Positions 1,822 through 60,006 of a stretch of DNA of 64,000 bases are shown here, piece after piece. The DNA comes from a virus. The stretch spans positions 1-64,000 of the IMG/VR virus record IMGVR_UViG_3300021077_000136; one strand, given 5' to 3'. Each line of letters begins with the position of its first letter. Position 1 is the stretch's first letter. The notes under the pieces were generated by a model. The model was not told the origin of the DNA and did no database searches. It worked only from the letters and a program-made list of their open reading frames with translations. A program made the position numbers and the translations under genes.

Positions 1822-4800
1822 AATTCCTCATCGTCTTCATCAACTGTTGAGATTCCAGCATCTAACATTTCATCTTCAAGTTTCTCTAAAAGTTCTTCCT
1901 TATCCAATTGTTCTATTTCTTCTTTGGTAACCTTCTTAGATCTTGACATCTTAACTTTCTTTGATGCGCGATCTTTTGGAAGGCAAGGTGGAGCTTTATA
2001 TTCTAATATATCACTCAAAATAAAACTGGTGGAATGTTCATTCTCCCATTGAAACTGTCCTAAAAACCTAATTGCGATTCCAGGTTCTATCTTCTGCGCA
2101 TATGGATACCCAGATAGTTCCTTTTCAATCCGAATTTTCATGGACTCCCATGCCTCAGGGAAGCACAACAATGCCGACTCATCTCCCCATGGATCTTGTA
2201 GGGTCAGCCTGGCCATTTCCTGACCAAATATCTTAGAGTCTTCCTTTTTTACTGTAAATGAGAAGACGCTGGTAATTACGCCCTCCAACGGACGTATCTT
2301 ATGGTTGGCAAGATAGTGAGTATTTGCCTTCCTATTTGCCCGCTCATCATCTTCGAATTTTCTTTCCCATGGAAACATCTGGGGTAAGGCTGAGAATGGA
2401 ATTGTCTTCTTCTTATCAAAGAATTTCGGGTACCTATCGAAGATATCTCCACTGATACCCTCACCCATGTAAAACTCTTCAAAAGCAAACAGCTCCTGGA
2501 CACTCCAAGGATCAACTTCTGGAAATGGATACTTGAACTCAGCTAATTGCAATTCTACGCGCTCTGGTGAGATTGCTACGTCTTCATTACCAGATTTGGC
2601 CCATACCTTATCCAGCTTCGCCATATGACTACGAAGCTTTGCGCGATAGTCAGAAGCGTAATGGAACATCAACTTCCGATTAACACCAACCAAATCCAGA
2701 ATGTTAAAATCGAATCCAAGCTGGCCAACCACACCAAATGAATCCAAACTACCTGACGCAGCCATGGCCTGAATACTTGGAGATCGAACTTTTGAAGCAT
2801 CAGTTCGATAAATCAAGTCCTGGAAGCTAGTAAATGGACGCTTAGAAATCAGCTCTGGGATTGCGTCCTTTCCCATGTATTTCAAAGAATCTAACCCGGT
2901 CATCAGGGTCTTGTCGTCAATGATCTTCCAAGATAATTCTGAAGTATTAACATCTGGCGGAACAATTTTCACTTTGTGATTTCTGATCTCCGTCTTGATC
3001 TTGAGAATATTGTCCTTGGATGCCTTGGCATTAGAACTCACCTCGGATATCAAATTGGCAACCAGAAACTCAATTGGATAGTTGGCTTTGAGATAAGCTG
3101 TATGAAAGGAGATCATTGAATACAACGTGGCATGACTCCGATTGAACCCGTAGCCACCGAACTGCGCAATGGTCTCATCCCAAATCTTGGTGGCAATTTC
3201 CTCAGGGATTCGCTTGTTCTTGACCGCGCCCTCGATGAATTCAGACCTCCACTTCTTGACCTTCTCAGGATTCTTACCCTTCTCTTTGGTAAGTTTCCTC
3301 AACTTATCTGCATCATGCAAATCCCATCCGGCAACATCCTGTGCCAGATACATTAGGCTCTCTTCATACAAACCAAAGCCATAGGTACTAGCGAAGGCTC
3401 TGGTTAGCGAAGGATGCATGAGTGAAATCTCGTCATCACCATTTCTAACCTTCAATAGACCAGGGATGGTGTCTTTCGCTGCCGGGCGTACTAGAGCTGA
3501 AATAAGCGCAATGTCAGCCACGCTTTTCGGCTTTACCTTCTTGCAAACATGAATTGCAGTGGAGCCTAATTGGAATACACCAAAGGTATCTCCCTCTCCA
3601 ATCAAGTCATAAGACAAAGTATCGTTAAGTTCATAATCAAACTTATCAGGGATTTGCTTACCTGTCTCTTTGATTAGCTTGTATGTATTTCCAATAATAT
3701 CAAGAGTTTCCACTCCCAAGATATCAATCTTTACAAGGCCATTCTCTTCAGCCTTCTCTTTATCGTACTCAAGAACAAGAGCCCCAGAAGTATCACGTCG
3801 AAGCGGTACAAGTCCGGTAAGCGGCCTCTTAGAGATGATAATGCCGCCAGCATGCGTTGACCAAGCACGTGGCAAGCCACAAAGATCCGCATATTGTACT
3901 AGCTCCGGATATTGCTTTGCGTATTCTGCAAATAACGGAGCATCTTCCAAAGCCTGTTTGATACTGTGCATTTCGTCTGGTAATGAATCAGCAATGTTAT
4001 TACCAATTTCTACAGCTGCACTTCTACCCTGGCCTCCGAATTCGAAAACACGAGCAATATCTCTGGCATATACTTTTGGAGTTATCGTGTTGATATTAGA
4101 CACATGGCAAACATTCTCCGTGCCATACTTACTACATAGATAATTGTATAGCTTCTCACGGCCAGATGATGCAATATCATTGTCAATATCCGGAAATGCT
4201 TCCTTGTACTTATTCAAGAAACGAGCGAAGATTAGGCCATACTTTTTCGGATAGGCCATGTGAATGTTATTGCAATAGGCGGAAAGAGAACCTCCAACGC
4301 TACCACGGCCAGGACCAATTGGGATTTGGTTATCGCGGCACCATCCCAAGAACTCTGCCGTAATCAACATGTAACTTGAGAAGTTTCGATATTCTAGAAC
4401 ATCAAACTCTTCCTTCATGGAAGCGTAGCTTTCGTCCCTATCAGCTTCAGGAATTTTTCCTTCTTTGATCTTCTTCTCAAGACCAACTTCACTACGATAG
4501 CGATAGAACTGTGCGTCATCTCCGAGCTTGGAATTGGTGTGCTCAACAAGCTTGCCACTACCCTTCCATTCCTCAAACTCTTTGATGTCTGGTTCGTTTT
4601 GGTATGGGAAATCTGGAAGCTGACTCTTTTCACCAGTTGAAACAGCTGGGTCAATCCAGTCTGGATTCTCGCATTTATCAGAGAAGTAGATAGTATTTTC
4701 GAAAAGCGATTCTACAAACTCCTCTCCCCAGAGTTGAATATGGCGAGAGAAATGTTCGAAGATTTGATCTGAGTTCTTGATGTAAAACTCGTGCTTATCA

Positions 4801-54015: not shown

Positions 54016-54549
54016 TCACCCAAAATCAAAAGGAAAGTTTATTTTAGCGAATTCTCCAAAGTATTTAATTGCTGCTATATCATAAGCTTTAGCCGCTTCA
54101 ATTTCTTTATCAAAATAACCAAGATTTATTGTTTTATGTTTTTTGCTATTTGGCCTTAAATCACCAGCCGCAATTGACGAGTGCCATTTATTAAGTTTAT
54201 TAGACCAAGACACACCTTTGTATTGAGAGGAACAGTTTTTTCTTTTTGCTTTATTCCTATTATTATCTAATGATCTTGCTTCTCTTAAATTATTAGATTG
54301 ATTATTAATGCCATTTCTATCTCTGTGATCCAATTGTACAATTTTTCCATTTACATTTGGATATAATAACCACCATATTTCATGGTGCATTTTAATTACT
54401 TTTTGTTTACCATTTTCAAGCGAAATTACTCTGCACGCATAATATGTAAGATGATCTTTGACAGCAAACCATTTCCATTGGTTTATATATGAAAAATGTT
54501 TATCGTCAATTAAAGCAATTTGGCACTGAGTTAATGATATCTCTTTCAT
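54016..54549 (-). CDS. HNH-AP2 homing-type endonuclease
   Basis: About 177 residues. An N-terminal module (KEISLTQCQIALIDD) is followed by HNH_3 (VQLDHRDRNGINNQSNNLREA) and an AP2-type DNA-binding domain (SSQYKGVSW, INLGYFDKEIEAAKAYD). Such free-standing endonucleases spread themselves by cutting alleles lacking them. It is a paralogue of the gene at 59.5 kb. ATG 54549 is used. Confidence 0.9.
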   Translation of the reverse strand: MKEISLTQCQIALIDDKHFSYINQWKWFAVKDHLTYYACRVISLENGKQKVIKMHHEIWWLLYPNVNGKIVQLDHRDRNGINNQSNNLREARSLDNNRNKAKRKNCSSQYKGVSWSNKLNKWHSSIAAGDLRPNSKKHKTINLGYFDKEIEAAKAYDIAAIKYFGEFAKINFPFDFG

Positions 54550-54621
54550 TATTCGTCCGATCCTGACCATGACACGCGAATGATACTTGTTAGATTATCC
54601 ACGAAGCCTCTACGTTAGCGA

Positions 54622-57926: not shown

Positions 57927-58433
57927 CTATGTGTTACAAACTGATTGGCCGGATTTTAGCACTTCAATTAGTTCATCAAGCCCGGTACACAATTTCCTAT
58001 CCGCTAGATAAAATGTATCGGTTATTTTTCTAGTTCTATCGAATTTAGATTCTTTTGACCACAAATTTGATGTTGATGACATTAGGCAGATCATACATCC
58101 AGTAGGTCTAGAGATGAATACATATGCTAATGGCTTTACTTTTTTCCCATCAAATCCAGATACCGTATCTACGAATAAGGTTTTGTAAGGAAAGGATAAT
58201 GTATATGTAAATGCTTCGTTGCGGCTTTTCGTTTCGATCGTATGTCCATTGACAATTAAGTCTTTGGAAGACATGTACGCGCCGGCATCTTTGATTGAAT
58301 CCCGAATCGTAAGCTCGGGCATCTCAACTTTCAAACCGTGCAACTCGAAGAATAGTTTCGGCAATTTTTGCCATTCGAAACCCTCTTTTAGTTGGGAGAA
58401 GAATAAGTCGTCATTATCAGACCAGTTTGTCAT
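57927..58433 (-). CDS. PD-(D/E)XK-like nuclease candidate, 168 aa
   Basis: An alpha/beta protein with a possible PD-(D/E)XK core: DAGAYMSSKDLIVNG, then HTIETKSR, placing Asp ahead of an E-x-K pair on adjacent strands. This matches the nuclease fold minimally; a non-nuclease is also possible. It lies just downstream of the RNA array, and the last element copy (58455) sits in its leader. Confidence 0.5.
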   Translation of the reverse strand: MTNWSDNDDLFFSQLKEGFEWQKLPKLFFELHGLKVEMPELTIRDSIKDAGAYMSSKDLIVNGHTIETKSRNEAFTYTLSFPYKTLFVDTVSGFDGKKVKPLAYVFISRPTGCMICLMSSTSNLWSKESKFDRTRKITDTFYLADRKLCTGLDELIEVLKSGQSVCNT

Positions 58434-58616
58434 TTATAATTTTTGAACAAGATTGCGTGTAAGAACCTTATGCATTCTTGCGAGCACTAAGTATCTTAGT
58501 AAAACACACTCAATAGGTCATTTACAATCAAATGTAGTTCCTGCTTGTATTCGTTGCAATTTGGACCGGCAAATGTAGATAATAAAAGTTTCGCAGTCGA
58601 GGTGAAATGCTTGTTT

Positions 58617-58690
58617 TGTTGCAAATGCAGGAATTGAACCTACTATTTTTCTTTTCAAGAGAAATGCCTAACCATTTGGCATAATTGCGT
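58617..58690 (-). tRNA. tRNA, anticodon GAA or UGA (ambiguous)
   Basis: D-arm GCC-loop-GGC (loop AAATGGTTA), T-arm GTAGG-TTCAATT-CCTGC, and an anticodon stem readable two ways. The TTTCT/AGAAA stem gives loop CTTGAAA (anticodon UGA); a one-base shift gives loop TTGAAAA (anticodon GAA, Phe-like). The acceptor is imperfect and the 3' end reads AACA rather than CCA, so function is uncertain. Element halves flank it on both sides. Confidence 0.6.
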
Positions 58691-58715
58691 GTATGCATCT
58701 CGGATTTGACTGCGT

Positions 58716-58823
58716 TGGTGGAGCTAGCCGGAATCGAACCGACTTATTCGTGTAAGCATTAAAGGATGCGTCATAAATGACGCGAGTGGTAACGCTAATT
58801 ACTTGATTTTAACCTTTAGCCCC
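58716..58823 (-). tRNA. tRNA-like gene A, element inside, encoded CCA
   Basis: 108 nt. The 7-bp acceptor GGGGCTA/TAGCTCC (one G-U), T-arm GTCGG-TTCGATT-CCGGC and an encoded ACCA end are good. Instead of D and anticodon arms there are about 20 nt and then the element (P2 GCGTCA/TGACGC). No anticodon arm could be folded. It may be a spliced tRNA precursor or a tRNA mimic. It lies in the P2 loop of the element joining its two tRNA neighbours. Confidence 0.5.
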
Positions 58824-58867
58824 AGAGTGTAATAAAAGTTTACGCAGTCGAGGTGAAATGCTTGTTT

Positions 58868-58942
58868 TGGTACGTAATATAGGAATTGAACCTATTGATG
58901 TTTTCGTGATAGGAAAACGCTCAACCATTGAGCAAATTGCGT
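58868..58942 (-). tRNA. tRNA with encoded CCA, anticodon loop reads AUC
   Basis: 75 nt and complete. Acceptor ACGCAAT/ATTACGT (6 of 7), D-stem GCTC/GAGC, anticodon stem TTTTC/GAAAA with loop CTATCAC, T-stem ATAGG/CCTAT, then discriminator A and CCA. The loop gives anticodon AUC by strict position, an unusual A34. Its first bases are part of the element's 3' motif (ACGC). Best tRNA in the array. Confidence 0.75.
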
Positions 58943-58970
58943 GTAAGCATCTCGAATTTGACTGCGTTAG

Positions 58971-59099
58971 CGCGGGTGCGTGGAGTTGAACCACGGCGTG
59001 TAAGCTTTGCTTGATGTATCCTTCTGAGGGGACACGAGTAAAAAAGCTGAATGTATCTGATTAAATGTCAGGCGAAGCACCGAGCTTCTATACACCCGC
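58971..59099 (-). tRNA. tRNA-like gene B with element between anticodon and T arms
   Basis: 129 nt. Acceptor GCGGGTG/CACCCGC is perfect, T-stem CGTGG/CCACG perfect, D-arm-like GAAGC/GCTTC. An anticodon-like stem (CTGA/TCAG) has loop CATTTAA; position 33 would be A rather than U, with UUU in the anticodon place. An element of about 55 nt (P1 AGCTTT/AAAGCT, P2 GTGTCC/GGATAC) follows before the T arm. CCA is not encoded. Confidence 0.5.
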
Positions 59100-59131
59100 A
59101 AGAGTTTAAGCTATCGAGTAATAGTGCTTTT

Positions 59132-59176
59132 TGGTTGTCCAGATACTCCGATCTGGACGTACGTTATTCCTAGCGT
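59132..59176 (-). ncRNA. Short hairpin RNA ending in ACCA (minihelix-like)
   Basis: A strong 8-bp hairpin (59137-59158, GTCCAGAT / ATCTGGAC, 6-base loop) followed by A-ACCA, between element halves (3' half before, 5' half after) with P1 AAGCACTAT/ATAGTGCTT. It occupies a tRNA position but is only about 45 nt. It could be a tRNA minihelix or a remnant. Confidence 0.45.
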
Positions 59177-59203
59177 GTAAGCACTATATGTTGATAACTT
59201 TAG

Positions 59204-59333
59204 TGGGGCTTTAGGGAGTTGAACCCAAGCGTGTAAGCTTCACAAAGATGCATCCTTTTACCGGGACGCGAGGGATAAAGCTGAGTTTTCCAACTTATGT
59301 AGTAGGTGCGGAACCGATCCGCTGTGAAGCCCC
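59204..59333 (-). tRNA. tRNA-like gene C with element between anticodon and T arms
   Basis: 130 nt. Acceptor GGGGCTT/AAGCCCC is perfect. D-arm GCGG-ATCGGTT-CCGC; anticodon-like arm CCTAC/GTTGG with loop TACATAA, placing CAU at 34-36 but A at 33. An element (P1 AGCTT/AAGCT, P2 GCGTCC/GGATGC) precedes the T arm, whose stem has one mismatch. CCA is not encoded. First of the array in transcription order. Confidence 0.5.
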
Positions 59334-59490: not shown

Positions 59491-60006
59491 TCAACATAAA
59501 GTATTATCAGTGCAATTATTATCTAATGATGAGCATGAAGTGAAATTTAACAATGCGCATTTGCCGTGCAATCTTTTAGATGCGTTATCATAAGCGAACG
59601 CAGCATCTATTTCGTTGTCAAAACTACCAAGATGGATTTGCTGTCCTTCTGAGGTTATGTAAGCGAACCACTTTAAATCTCTTCTAAAAAAGCACACCCC
59701 TTTATATTTAGAGGATCCGGCCCACTTTCTTCTATTAATCTGATTTTCTGATCCTAGACATATTCTAAGATTATATCTTTGATTATTAGTTCCATTATGG
59801 TCTATGTGGTCAATATGCACTTTGGAATTTGTGATACCAAAGATCACTCTGTGCATTCTTATAGTTTTCTTATTCTCTTTGCGTTGAGCATAATATACAT
59901 CCCAGCGCTTATCATAATAAGCGTACCATTTATACTTATTTACCGATTCAAAATCATCGTCATCTACAAGCGCAACCTGTCCTTGTGTTAATTGAATTTC
60001 TTTCAT
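59491..60006 (-). CDS. HNH-AP2 homing-type endonuclease, second copy
   Basis: 171 residues: N-terminal KEIQLTQGQVALVDD, HNH_3 motif VHIDHIDHNGTNNQRYNLRI, then AP2 (KYKGVCFFRRDLKWFAY, IHLGSFDNEIDAAFAYD). Clear paralogue of the 54.0-kb gene but diverged. It lies directly upstream of the tRNA array and just after the nucleoside hydrolase; tRNA genes are common homing targets. Confidence 0.9.
   Translation of the reverse strand: MKEIQLTQGQVALVDDDDFESVNKYKWYAYYDKRWDVYYAQRKENKKTIRMHRVIFGITNSKVHIDHIDHNGTNNQRYNLRICLGSENQINRRKWAGSSKYKGVCFFRRDLKWFAYITSEGQQIHLGSFDNEIDAAFAYDNASKRLHGKCALLNFTSCSSLDNNCTDNTLC

Follow-up and report, generated by a model that had tools for sequence, protein, structure and literature searches.

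A candidate permutable splicing element in the tRNA genes of huge phages

The tRNA cluster at 58455-59333 of the virus record IMGVR_UViG_3300021077_000136, the first 64,000 nt of which form the stretch of DNA analysed here (the window), carries a short motif, GCTTACACGC, in seven copies, and raises the question of what a repeated RNA structure does among, and partly inside, tRNA genes. The original prediction was of a new structured RNA with two covarying stems, perhaps a ribozyme or intron that processes the tRNAs. The recurrence was borne out: four copies are exact and three have one mismatch, they span 58455-59238, all lie on the minus strand, and no exact copy occurs elsewhere in the entire 78-kb virus record. 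The proposed pairings of P1 and P2 are also present, and they covary. The copies are not equivalent, however, as only three have their halves in 5'-then-3' order, three are inverted, and one is a truncated remnant. One pair given in support of covariation, ACTGCG/CGCAGT, does pair but derives from copies with inverted order, and the copies do lie among tRNA genes but on the minus strand, which also encodes the tRNAs. The permuted order of half the copies, which had been missed, is the most informative fact of the present analysis.

Layout of the tRNA cluster

When the minus strand is read by hand, the cluster resolves into six units and one remnant. Three copies of the element interrupt tRNA-like genes (Met-CAT, Lys-TTT and an Ala/tmRNA-like body), and only these have the 5' half (X) followed by the 3' half (Y). 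In the three inverted copies, Y lies upstream and X downstream of an enclosed RNA, which is a 45-nt hairpin RNA (copy D, Y/X at 59200/59108), tRNA-Asp (58966/58843) or tRNA-Ser (58714/58592). A search of IMG/VR with strict patterns retrieved one relative (IMGVR 3300037225_000673, hereafter G001; the window's own phage is G000), and this carries the same cluster with two extra interrupted tRNAs, Asn and Arg. The features of the window are as follows.

59205-59333, minus strand: tRNA-Met-like gene (CAT) with the element in its variable region; acceptor GGGGCTT/AAGCCCC, D arm, T arm, anticodon loop TACATAA
59229-59284, minus strand: element in intron order (P1, CUC loop, P2, tail TTACACGC); 62.0 bits with model R1, 55.2 bits with model R2
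59173-59200, minus strand: Y (3' half) of permuted copy D, upstream of the enclosed RNA; pairs with 59108-59129 (P1 8/8, P2 7/7)
about 59130-59174, minus strand: enclosed ~45-nt hairpin RNA (GTCCAGA/TCTGGAC), no recognised tRNA; stem pairing kept in G001
59108-59129, minus strand: X (5' half) of permuted copy D, downstream of the enclosed RNA; pairs with Y at 59173-59200
58972-59099, minus strand: tRNA-Lys-like gene (TTT) with the element in its variable region; acceptor GCGGGTG/CACCCGC 7/7, T stem 5/5
58996-59050, minus strand: element in intron order, inside Lys-TTT; 61.0 bits with model R1
58939-58966, minus strand: Y of the copy enclosing tRNA-Asp; P1 8/8 and P2 7/7 with 58843-58862
58868-58942, minus strand: tRNA-Asp (anticodon ATC), enclosed by a permuted element; ARAGORN, Rfam RF00005 51.7 bits
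58843-58862, minus strand: X of the copy enclosing tRNA-Asp; pairs with Y at 58939-58966
58716-58823, minus strand: Ala/tmRNA-like RNA in which the element replaces the anticodon arm; acceptor GGGGCTA/TAGCTCC, G3-U70, encoded CCA
58748-58798, minus strand: element in intron order, in the Ala/tmRNA-like RNA; 55.5 bits with model R1
58687-58714, minus strand: Y of the copy enclosing tRNA-Ser; P1 7/8 and P2 7/7 with 58592-58611
58618-58689, minus strand: tRNA-Ser (anticodon TGA), enclosed by a permuted element; ARAGORN, Rfam RF00005 48.4 bits
58592-58611, minus strand: X of the copy enclosing tRNA-Ser; pairs with Y at 58687-58714
58455-58498, minus strand: remnant (14.9 bits) of an Asn-type intron copy that has decayed and lost its T arm; the copy is intact in G001 (L012 5140-5190)

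The acceptor stem of the Met-like gene covaries with GCCGCTT/AAGCGGC in G001, and the hairpin stem of the D unit stays paired there despite two double changes. ARAGORN finds only tRNA-Ser and tRNA-Asp in the window as written; the remaining tRNA bodies (Met-CAT, Lys-TTT and Ala-like) are masked from it by the element, and Lys-TTT is matched only once the element is removed. The tail ACGC of the Y half that precedes tRNA-Asp overlaps the 5' end of that tRNA.

The Ala-like unit (B) and the D unit yield no ordinary tRNAs. Trans-splicing between the two, with D supplying the anticodon arm for B, was considered and rejected, as P1 could form with 7/8 pairs but P2 is left unpaired. The Ala/tmRNA-like RNA lacks an anticodon arm in both phages, where it is conserved, and its Rfam tmRNA score (24.9 bits) is below the cut-off of 47; it is possibly tmRNA-like, or a minihelix charged by AlaRS. 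HNH/AP2 homing-endonuclease-like genes lie near the tRNA cluster and the repair genes, at 59491-60006 (a Pfam AP2/HNH match) and, as judged from sequence similarity, at 54016-54570 and L140 1689-2225. The 168-aa protein encoded next to the cluster (57927-58433) looked by eye like a PD-(D/E)XK nuclease, an assignment that was dropped as there was no Pfam match and the AlphaFold model was unusable (pLDDT 40).

Structure, covariation and distribution of the element

The element is about 50 nt long and consists of an 8-bp P1, an internal loop with a conserved CUC, a P2 of 6-7 bp and the tail ACA[AC]GC. An alignment of 14 rows (seven copies each from the window's phage and G001, counting shared units) has a gap-free core with P1 of 8 bp, NMCUC opposite 5-6 nt, P2 of at least 6 bp and the tail UUACACGC. 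Compensatory changes are found in 10 of its 14 pairs, 94.9% of cells are paired, the covariation score is 0.686 compared to 0.07-0.16 for slid controls, and RNAalifold, unaided, returns the same fold. With 29 copies from four phages, all 14 pairs show compensatory changes (score 0.757; slid controls at most 0.148), and a fitted alignment of 65 distinct rows is 87% paired with a score of 0.573 against at most 0.096. None of 500 shuffles equalled the observed covariation score. The element is a functional structured RNA family, with covariation well beyond chance in independent homologues, as had been anticipated from the seven copies; a chance repeat or mobile palindrome is ruled out by this covariation and by confinement to tRNA genes.

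The element has no match in Rfam at gathering or relaxed thresholds, where only tRNA passes, and the sub-threshold matches to tmRNA and YrlA fall on tRNA-like parts. Hammerhead, twister, HDV, group I and II introns, GOLLD/ROOL RNAs and riboswitches were all set aside on this basis, in agreement with the earlier remark that hammerhead, group I and twister/HDV features are lacking.

Database scans with patterns and the model, a check of the kind that had been proposed, placed homologues on about 25 other contigs, mostly of very large phages. Three huge-phage contigs and Virus Rctr197k (KX853510) were retrieved through the vWA-domain protein of G001, and in two of these contigs, L143 (377 kb) and L145 (200 kb), the model located the element beside tRNAs. 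Copies from the last two were the basis of a wider scan pattern, which together with a refined model gave about 60 matches on more than 20 contigs of up to 529 kb, some of them near-duplicates (L156/L170, L159/L176 and L169/L228/L231). The wide pattern fixed CTCG, CTNACAMGC and GGTTCGA, so that the added copies share these letters in part through the design of the pattern; the acceptor, D and anticodon arms, the pairing and the permuted order were left free. A scan of 85,000 genomes gave no cellular homologues; its matches were ordinary tRNAs whose variable loop reads TACAC, and an unrelated repeat from Clostridia. This repeat, on four contigs of the rumen Clostridia MAG RGIG3526 (L090, L118, L127 and L129), consists of a hairpin that precedes TTACACGC and then a T-arm-like GGTTCGAATCC; by the model it has no similarity to the element.

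Interrupted, enclosed and permuted tRNA genes

Three arrangements recur among these phages. The intron order is seen in 53 distinct copies, each placed in the variable region of a tRNA whose acceptor (7/7 pairs), anticodon and T arms are complete. Complete tRNAs are enclosed by the element in 17 distinct cases, and acceptor position 1 is mismatched in 11 of them because the tail of the element supplies the 5' bases. Lastly, at least 16 copies enclose circularly permuted tRNA genes, with the order Y, T arm, acceptor 3' strand, a linker of 4-15 nt or more, acceptor 5' strand, D arm, anticodon arm and X; these occur in L143, L145, L156, L163, L195, L199, L209, L212 and others, and none is in the window. 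When Y was required to precede X within 150 nt, 62 pairs (43 with a T arm) were counted in 844 kb (83 loci including the window and G001), whereas unrelated loci totalling 922 kb gave 6, of which 3 have a T arm. In the annotated GenBank phage KX853510 there is a permuted tRNA whose variable arm is class-II-like, together with an enclosed complete tRNA that is missing from the annotation. By eye, the junction falls in the D loop in one case (L156 1700) and between the acceptor and D arm in another (L220 13110). On the sequence evidence, the element and its arrangements are established.

Rejoining the pieces in silico restores recognisable tRNAs. None of the 16 permuted genes is accepted by ARAGORN as written and 15 are after rejoining; for the interrupted genes the numbers are 0/53 as written and 40/53 after splicing, although the candidates had been chosen for their paired arms (ARAGORN scoring was unused in the choice), and the test is not fully independent. 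Because they are written back-to-front, the scrambled tRNA genes would be usable only if the element is excised and the pieces are joined, and the comparisons strongly support the need for the parts to be joined to yield a tRNA. The relatives, permuted genes included, thus lend support to the intron-like role first suggested for the element.

We consider the element to be a permutable tRNA splicing element (probability roughly 0.8) that would be cut at the base of P1 and religated, probably by RtcB. The X and Y strands are predicted to fold into one module, with P1, the CUC internal loop, P2 and the tail ACA[AC]GC, that would juxtapose both exon ends at the base of P1. With X before Y, an intron of about 50 nt would leave the variable region to give a linear tRNA. 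With Y before X, the enclosed RNA would be closed into a circle, and for the permuted genes this circle would restore the tRNA order and could be opened at the acceptor loop by the normal tRNA end-processing enzymes, as in algae.

We infer the cutting and joining, the exact junctions and the role of RtcB from sequence comparison. On the 3' side the most likely cut is ACA[AC]^GC, which leaves the 3' exon a share of 5 nt of the variable loop in 24 of 53 genes, the commonest length and also the canonical one. On the 5' side the cut would fall at or upstream of the conserved YC that precedes P1. The segment from nt 43 to P1 is 4-21 nt long, forms a small hairpin in 22 of 31 cases (6 when shuffled) and ends in YC in 54 of 59; ARAGORN accepts tRNAs with or without it, which leaves the 5' cut site unfixed. 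This segment might exit with the intron or remain as a small variable arm.

U33 is missing from 20 of 46 seven-nt anticodon loops of interrupted tRNAs (for example TACATAA, CATTTAA, CATCGAA and CGGTAAA, in the window at 59205-59333 and 58972-59099, in L012 and in relatives). Its absence could help these tRNAs to evade anticodon nucleases (compare PMC10264068), or could mark tRNAs that are non-decoding. Short hairpin RNAs other than tRNAs are also enclosed, in the D units of the window and L012, at L143 20080-20160, and in L153 and L169. The L153 hairpin (reverse strand, near 3880) opens with a canonical anticodon arm with the loop CTCATAA. All of these are possible tiny circular RNAs.

An improbable alternative is that the element serves only as a signal for processing or cleavage, either a self-cleaving ribozyme or a nuclease site, and that no ligation follows. 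Enclosed tRNAs would then be released, and end cuts suffice for those that are complete, with the tail overlapping the tRNA 5' end; interrupted tRNAs would be nicked or split but working, or would be decoys, as the frequent loss of U33 might suggest. The permuted genes, of which there are at least 16, argue against this: cutting alone yields no tRNA from them, as the junction between anticodon and T arm has to be sealed. In addition, the intron copies sit in tRNAs with acceptor stems kept paired by compensatory change.

Slightly less probable again is that the element is never removed and forms an extra structured arm, protein-binding or similar to a Y RNA, on tRNA-like decoys or regulators. 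In bacteria, Ro and Y RNAs can be part of rtcB operons, the permuted units are laid out in the same order as bacterial YrlA (T arm, closed acceptor stem, D arm), the G001 vWA protein has 619 aa, a Ro60-like size, and one permuted unit has a YrlA match of 26.5 bits (E 0.0006). This match is sub-threshold, however, and is limited to the tRNA-like part, excluding the terminal stem; no TROVE domain was detected in the vWA protein, and an identification as a Y RNA was rejected on these grounds. A generic decoy would also have no need of the complete, isoacceptor-specific anticodon arms that these phages carry for many amino acids. That the element is a shrunken intron of known class (group I, group II or bulge-helix-bulge, BHB) is very improbable in spite of its intron-like placement and of the permuted tRNA genes supported by BHB introns (PMC3978253), given that Rfam has no group I/II match and their cores are typically above 200 nt, that none of 59 copies can form the 4-bp BHB central helix (on average 0.83 of its 4 pairs, against 0.93 for shuffled sequences), and that the fragmentary records of the two closest phages contain no EndA-type endonuclease.

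Candidate enzymes and comparison with known systems

RtcB joins a 2',3'-cyclic phosphate or 3'-phosphate to a 5'-OH, and is encoded by both G000 and G001. The two proteins share just 28% identity yet have, by eye, similar neighbouring genes, as though one RtcB had replaced another and the function had not been lost. In the G000 protein (69629-70924, equal to L140 6629-7924) the metal-ligand motif, usually GNHF, reads GTGNNFIE, and the activity of this enzyme is uncertain; that of G001 (L141 7467-8882) is a different protein with the usual His. RtcB was found on 11 of 25 contigs with the element (KX853510 counted) and on none of 10 without it (one-sided p ~0.01 by hand; Fisher p = 0.007 for a 24/11 division made when KX853510 was unrecognised as positive), an association that is suggestive only, because the negative contigs are smaller. 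More than half of the element-bearing contigs, some of 370-500 kb, lack RtcB. Joining of the exons would probably be by phage or host RtcB, and the contigs without the gene would need a host ligase. A search for a T4-type ligase gave no match, but was uninformative, as it was silent in every control genome too.

Near RtcB, the window's phage encodes a Thg1-like 3'-5' polymerase and a KptA/Tpt1 RNA 2'-phosphotransferase (L140 8864-9649 and 9950-10480), and G001 also has Thg1. The Thg1-like enzyme could act on enclosed tRNAs to repair their mismatched first acceptor bases, although as a general explanation this was rejected, Thg1 being present in 4 contigs only despite the frequency of the mismatch. 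An RlaP-type nucleotidyltransferase and a polynucleotide-kinase-like protein are also encoded in the window. The vWA-domain protein of G001 (L141 11884-13743) has counterparts in several huge phages, while that of G000 (L140 2185-3644) is divided over two frames (415 and 109 aa) and adjoins an HNH/AP2-like gene.

The ~50-nt module may itself be catalytic, and we would put this at somewhat below even odds. It would be a third natural class of self-splicing intron (or a doubly self-cleaving one joined by RtcB), one that, on the same tentative footing, would be far smaller than group I and II introns, work in both intron and permuted form, and be used for scrambled tRNA genes in huge phages. Equally tentatively, the scrambled order might hide tRNAs from host tRNA nucleases until they are processed.

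To our knowledge, the introns of bacterial and phage tRNA genes all belong to group I or II, and a splicing route via this element would be new to bacteria and phages. If correct, it is a new splicing class, one that supports intron, exon-enclosing and permuted layouts and is spread over about 25 contigs of huge phages, and it would account for many tRNAs missed by annotation tools in these phages. It would also provide a defined phage substrate for RtcB and a natural template for very small RNA circularisation. We found no prior description of permuted tRNAs in phages in open-licence PMC papers (preprints excluded), and a survey of huge phages that used tRNAscan-SE and ARAGORN does not contain the words intron or permuted in its main text (PMC7162821).

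Several known systems resemble parts of this arrangement. Small self-cleaving ribozymes that are used with RtcB, as in retrozyme circles and the engineered 'Tornado' circRNA, likewise have ends that RtcB can join, compact helices and tolerance of permutation; in contrast, the phage element has no Rfam ribozyme match and would need two cuts, not one, with cleavage here being predicted. In the permuted intron-exon (PIE) arrangement of group I introns, swapped intron halves also circularise the enclosed exon, but these are engineered, and the introns are several times longer than the ~50-nt element of the natural phage arrangement, in which no group I feature was found. YrlA Y RNAs (RF02553) have a T arm, a closed acceptor-like stem and a D arm within a terminal stem with an internal loop, and can be linked to rtcB operons; the phage element suggests a link between permuted tRNAs and tRNA-mimicking Y RNAs. 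The YrlA score is, however, 26.5 against a cut-off of 69, over the tRNA-like part only, and the phage permuted units have an anticodon arm and a terminal stem with a different conserved core.

A further parallel is found in the permuted tRNA genes known previously from six algae and one archaeon, which are spliced at a BHB (Soma 2014, PMC3978253). As in the phages, the red and green algal and Thermofilum permuted and intron-containing genes have the 3' half of the tRNA first, a short intervening sequence, a presumed circular intermediate opened at the acceptor stem, and introns at non-canonical sites. They differ in that their BHB is cut by the tRNA splicing endonuclease, whereas the BHB is absent from all 59 copies of the phage element, and in the phages one conserved two-helix element is common to the intron and permuted copies.
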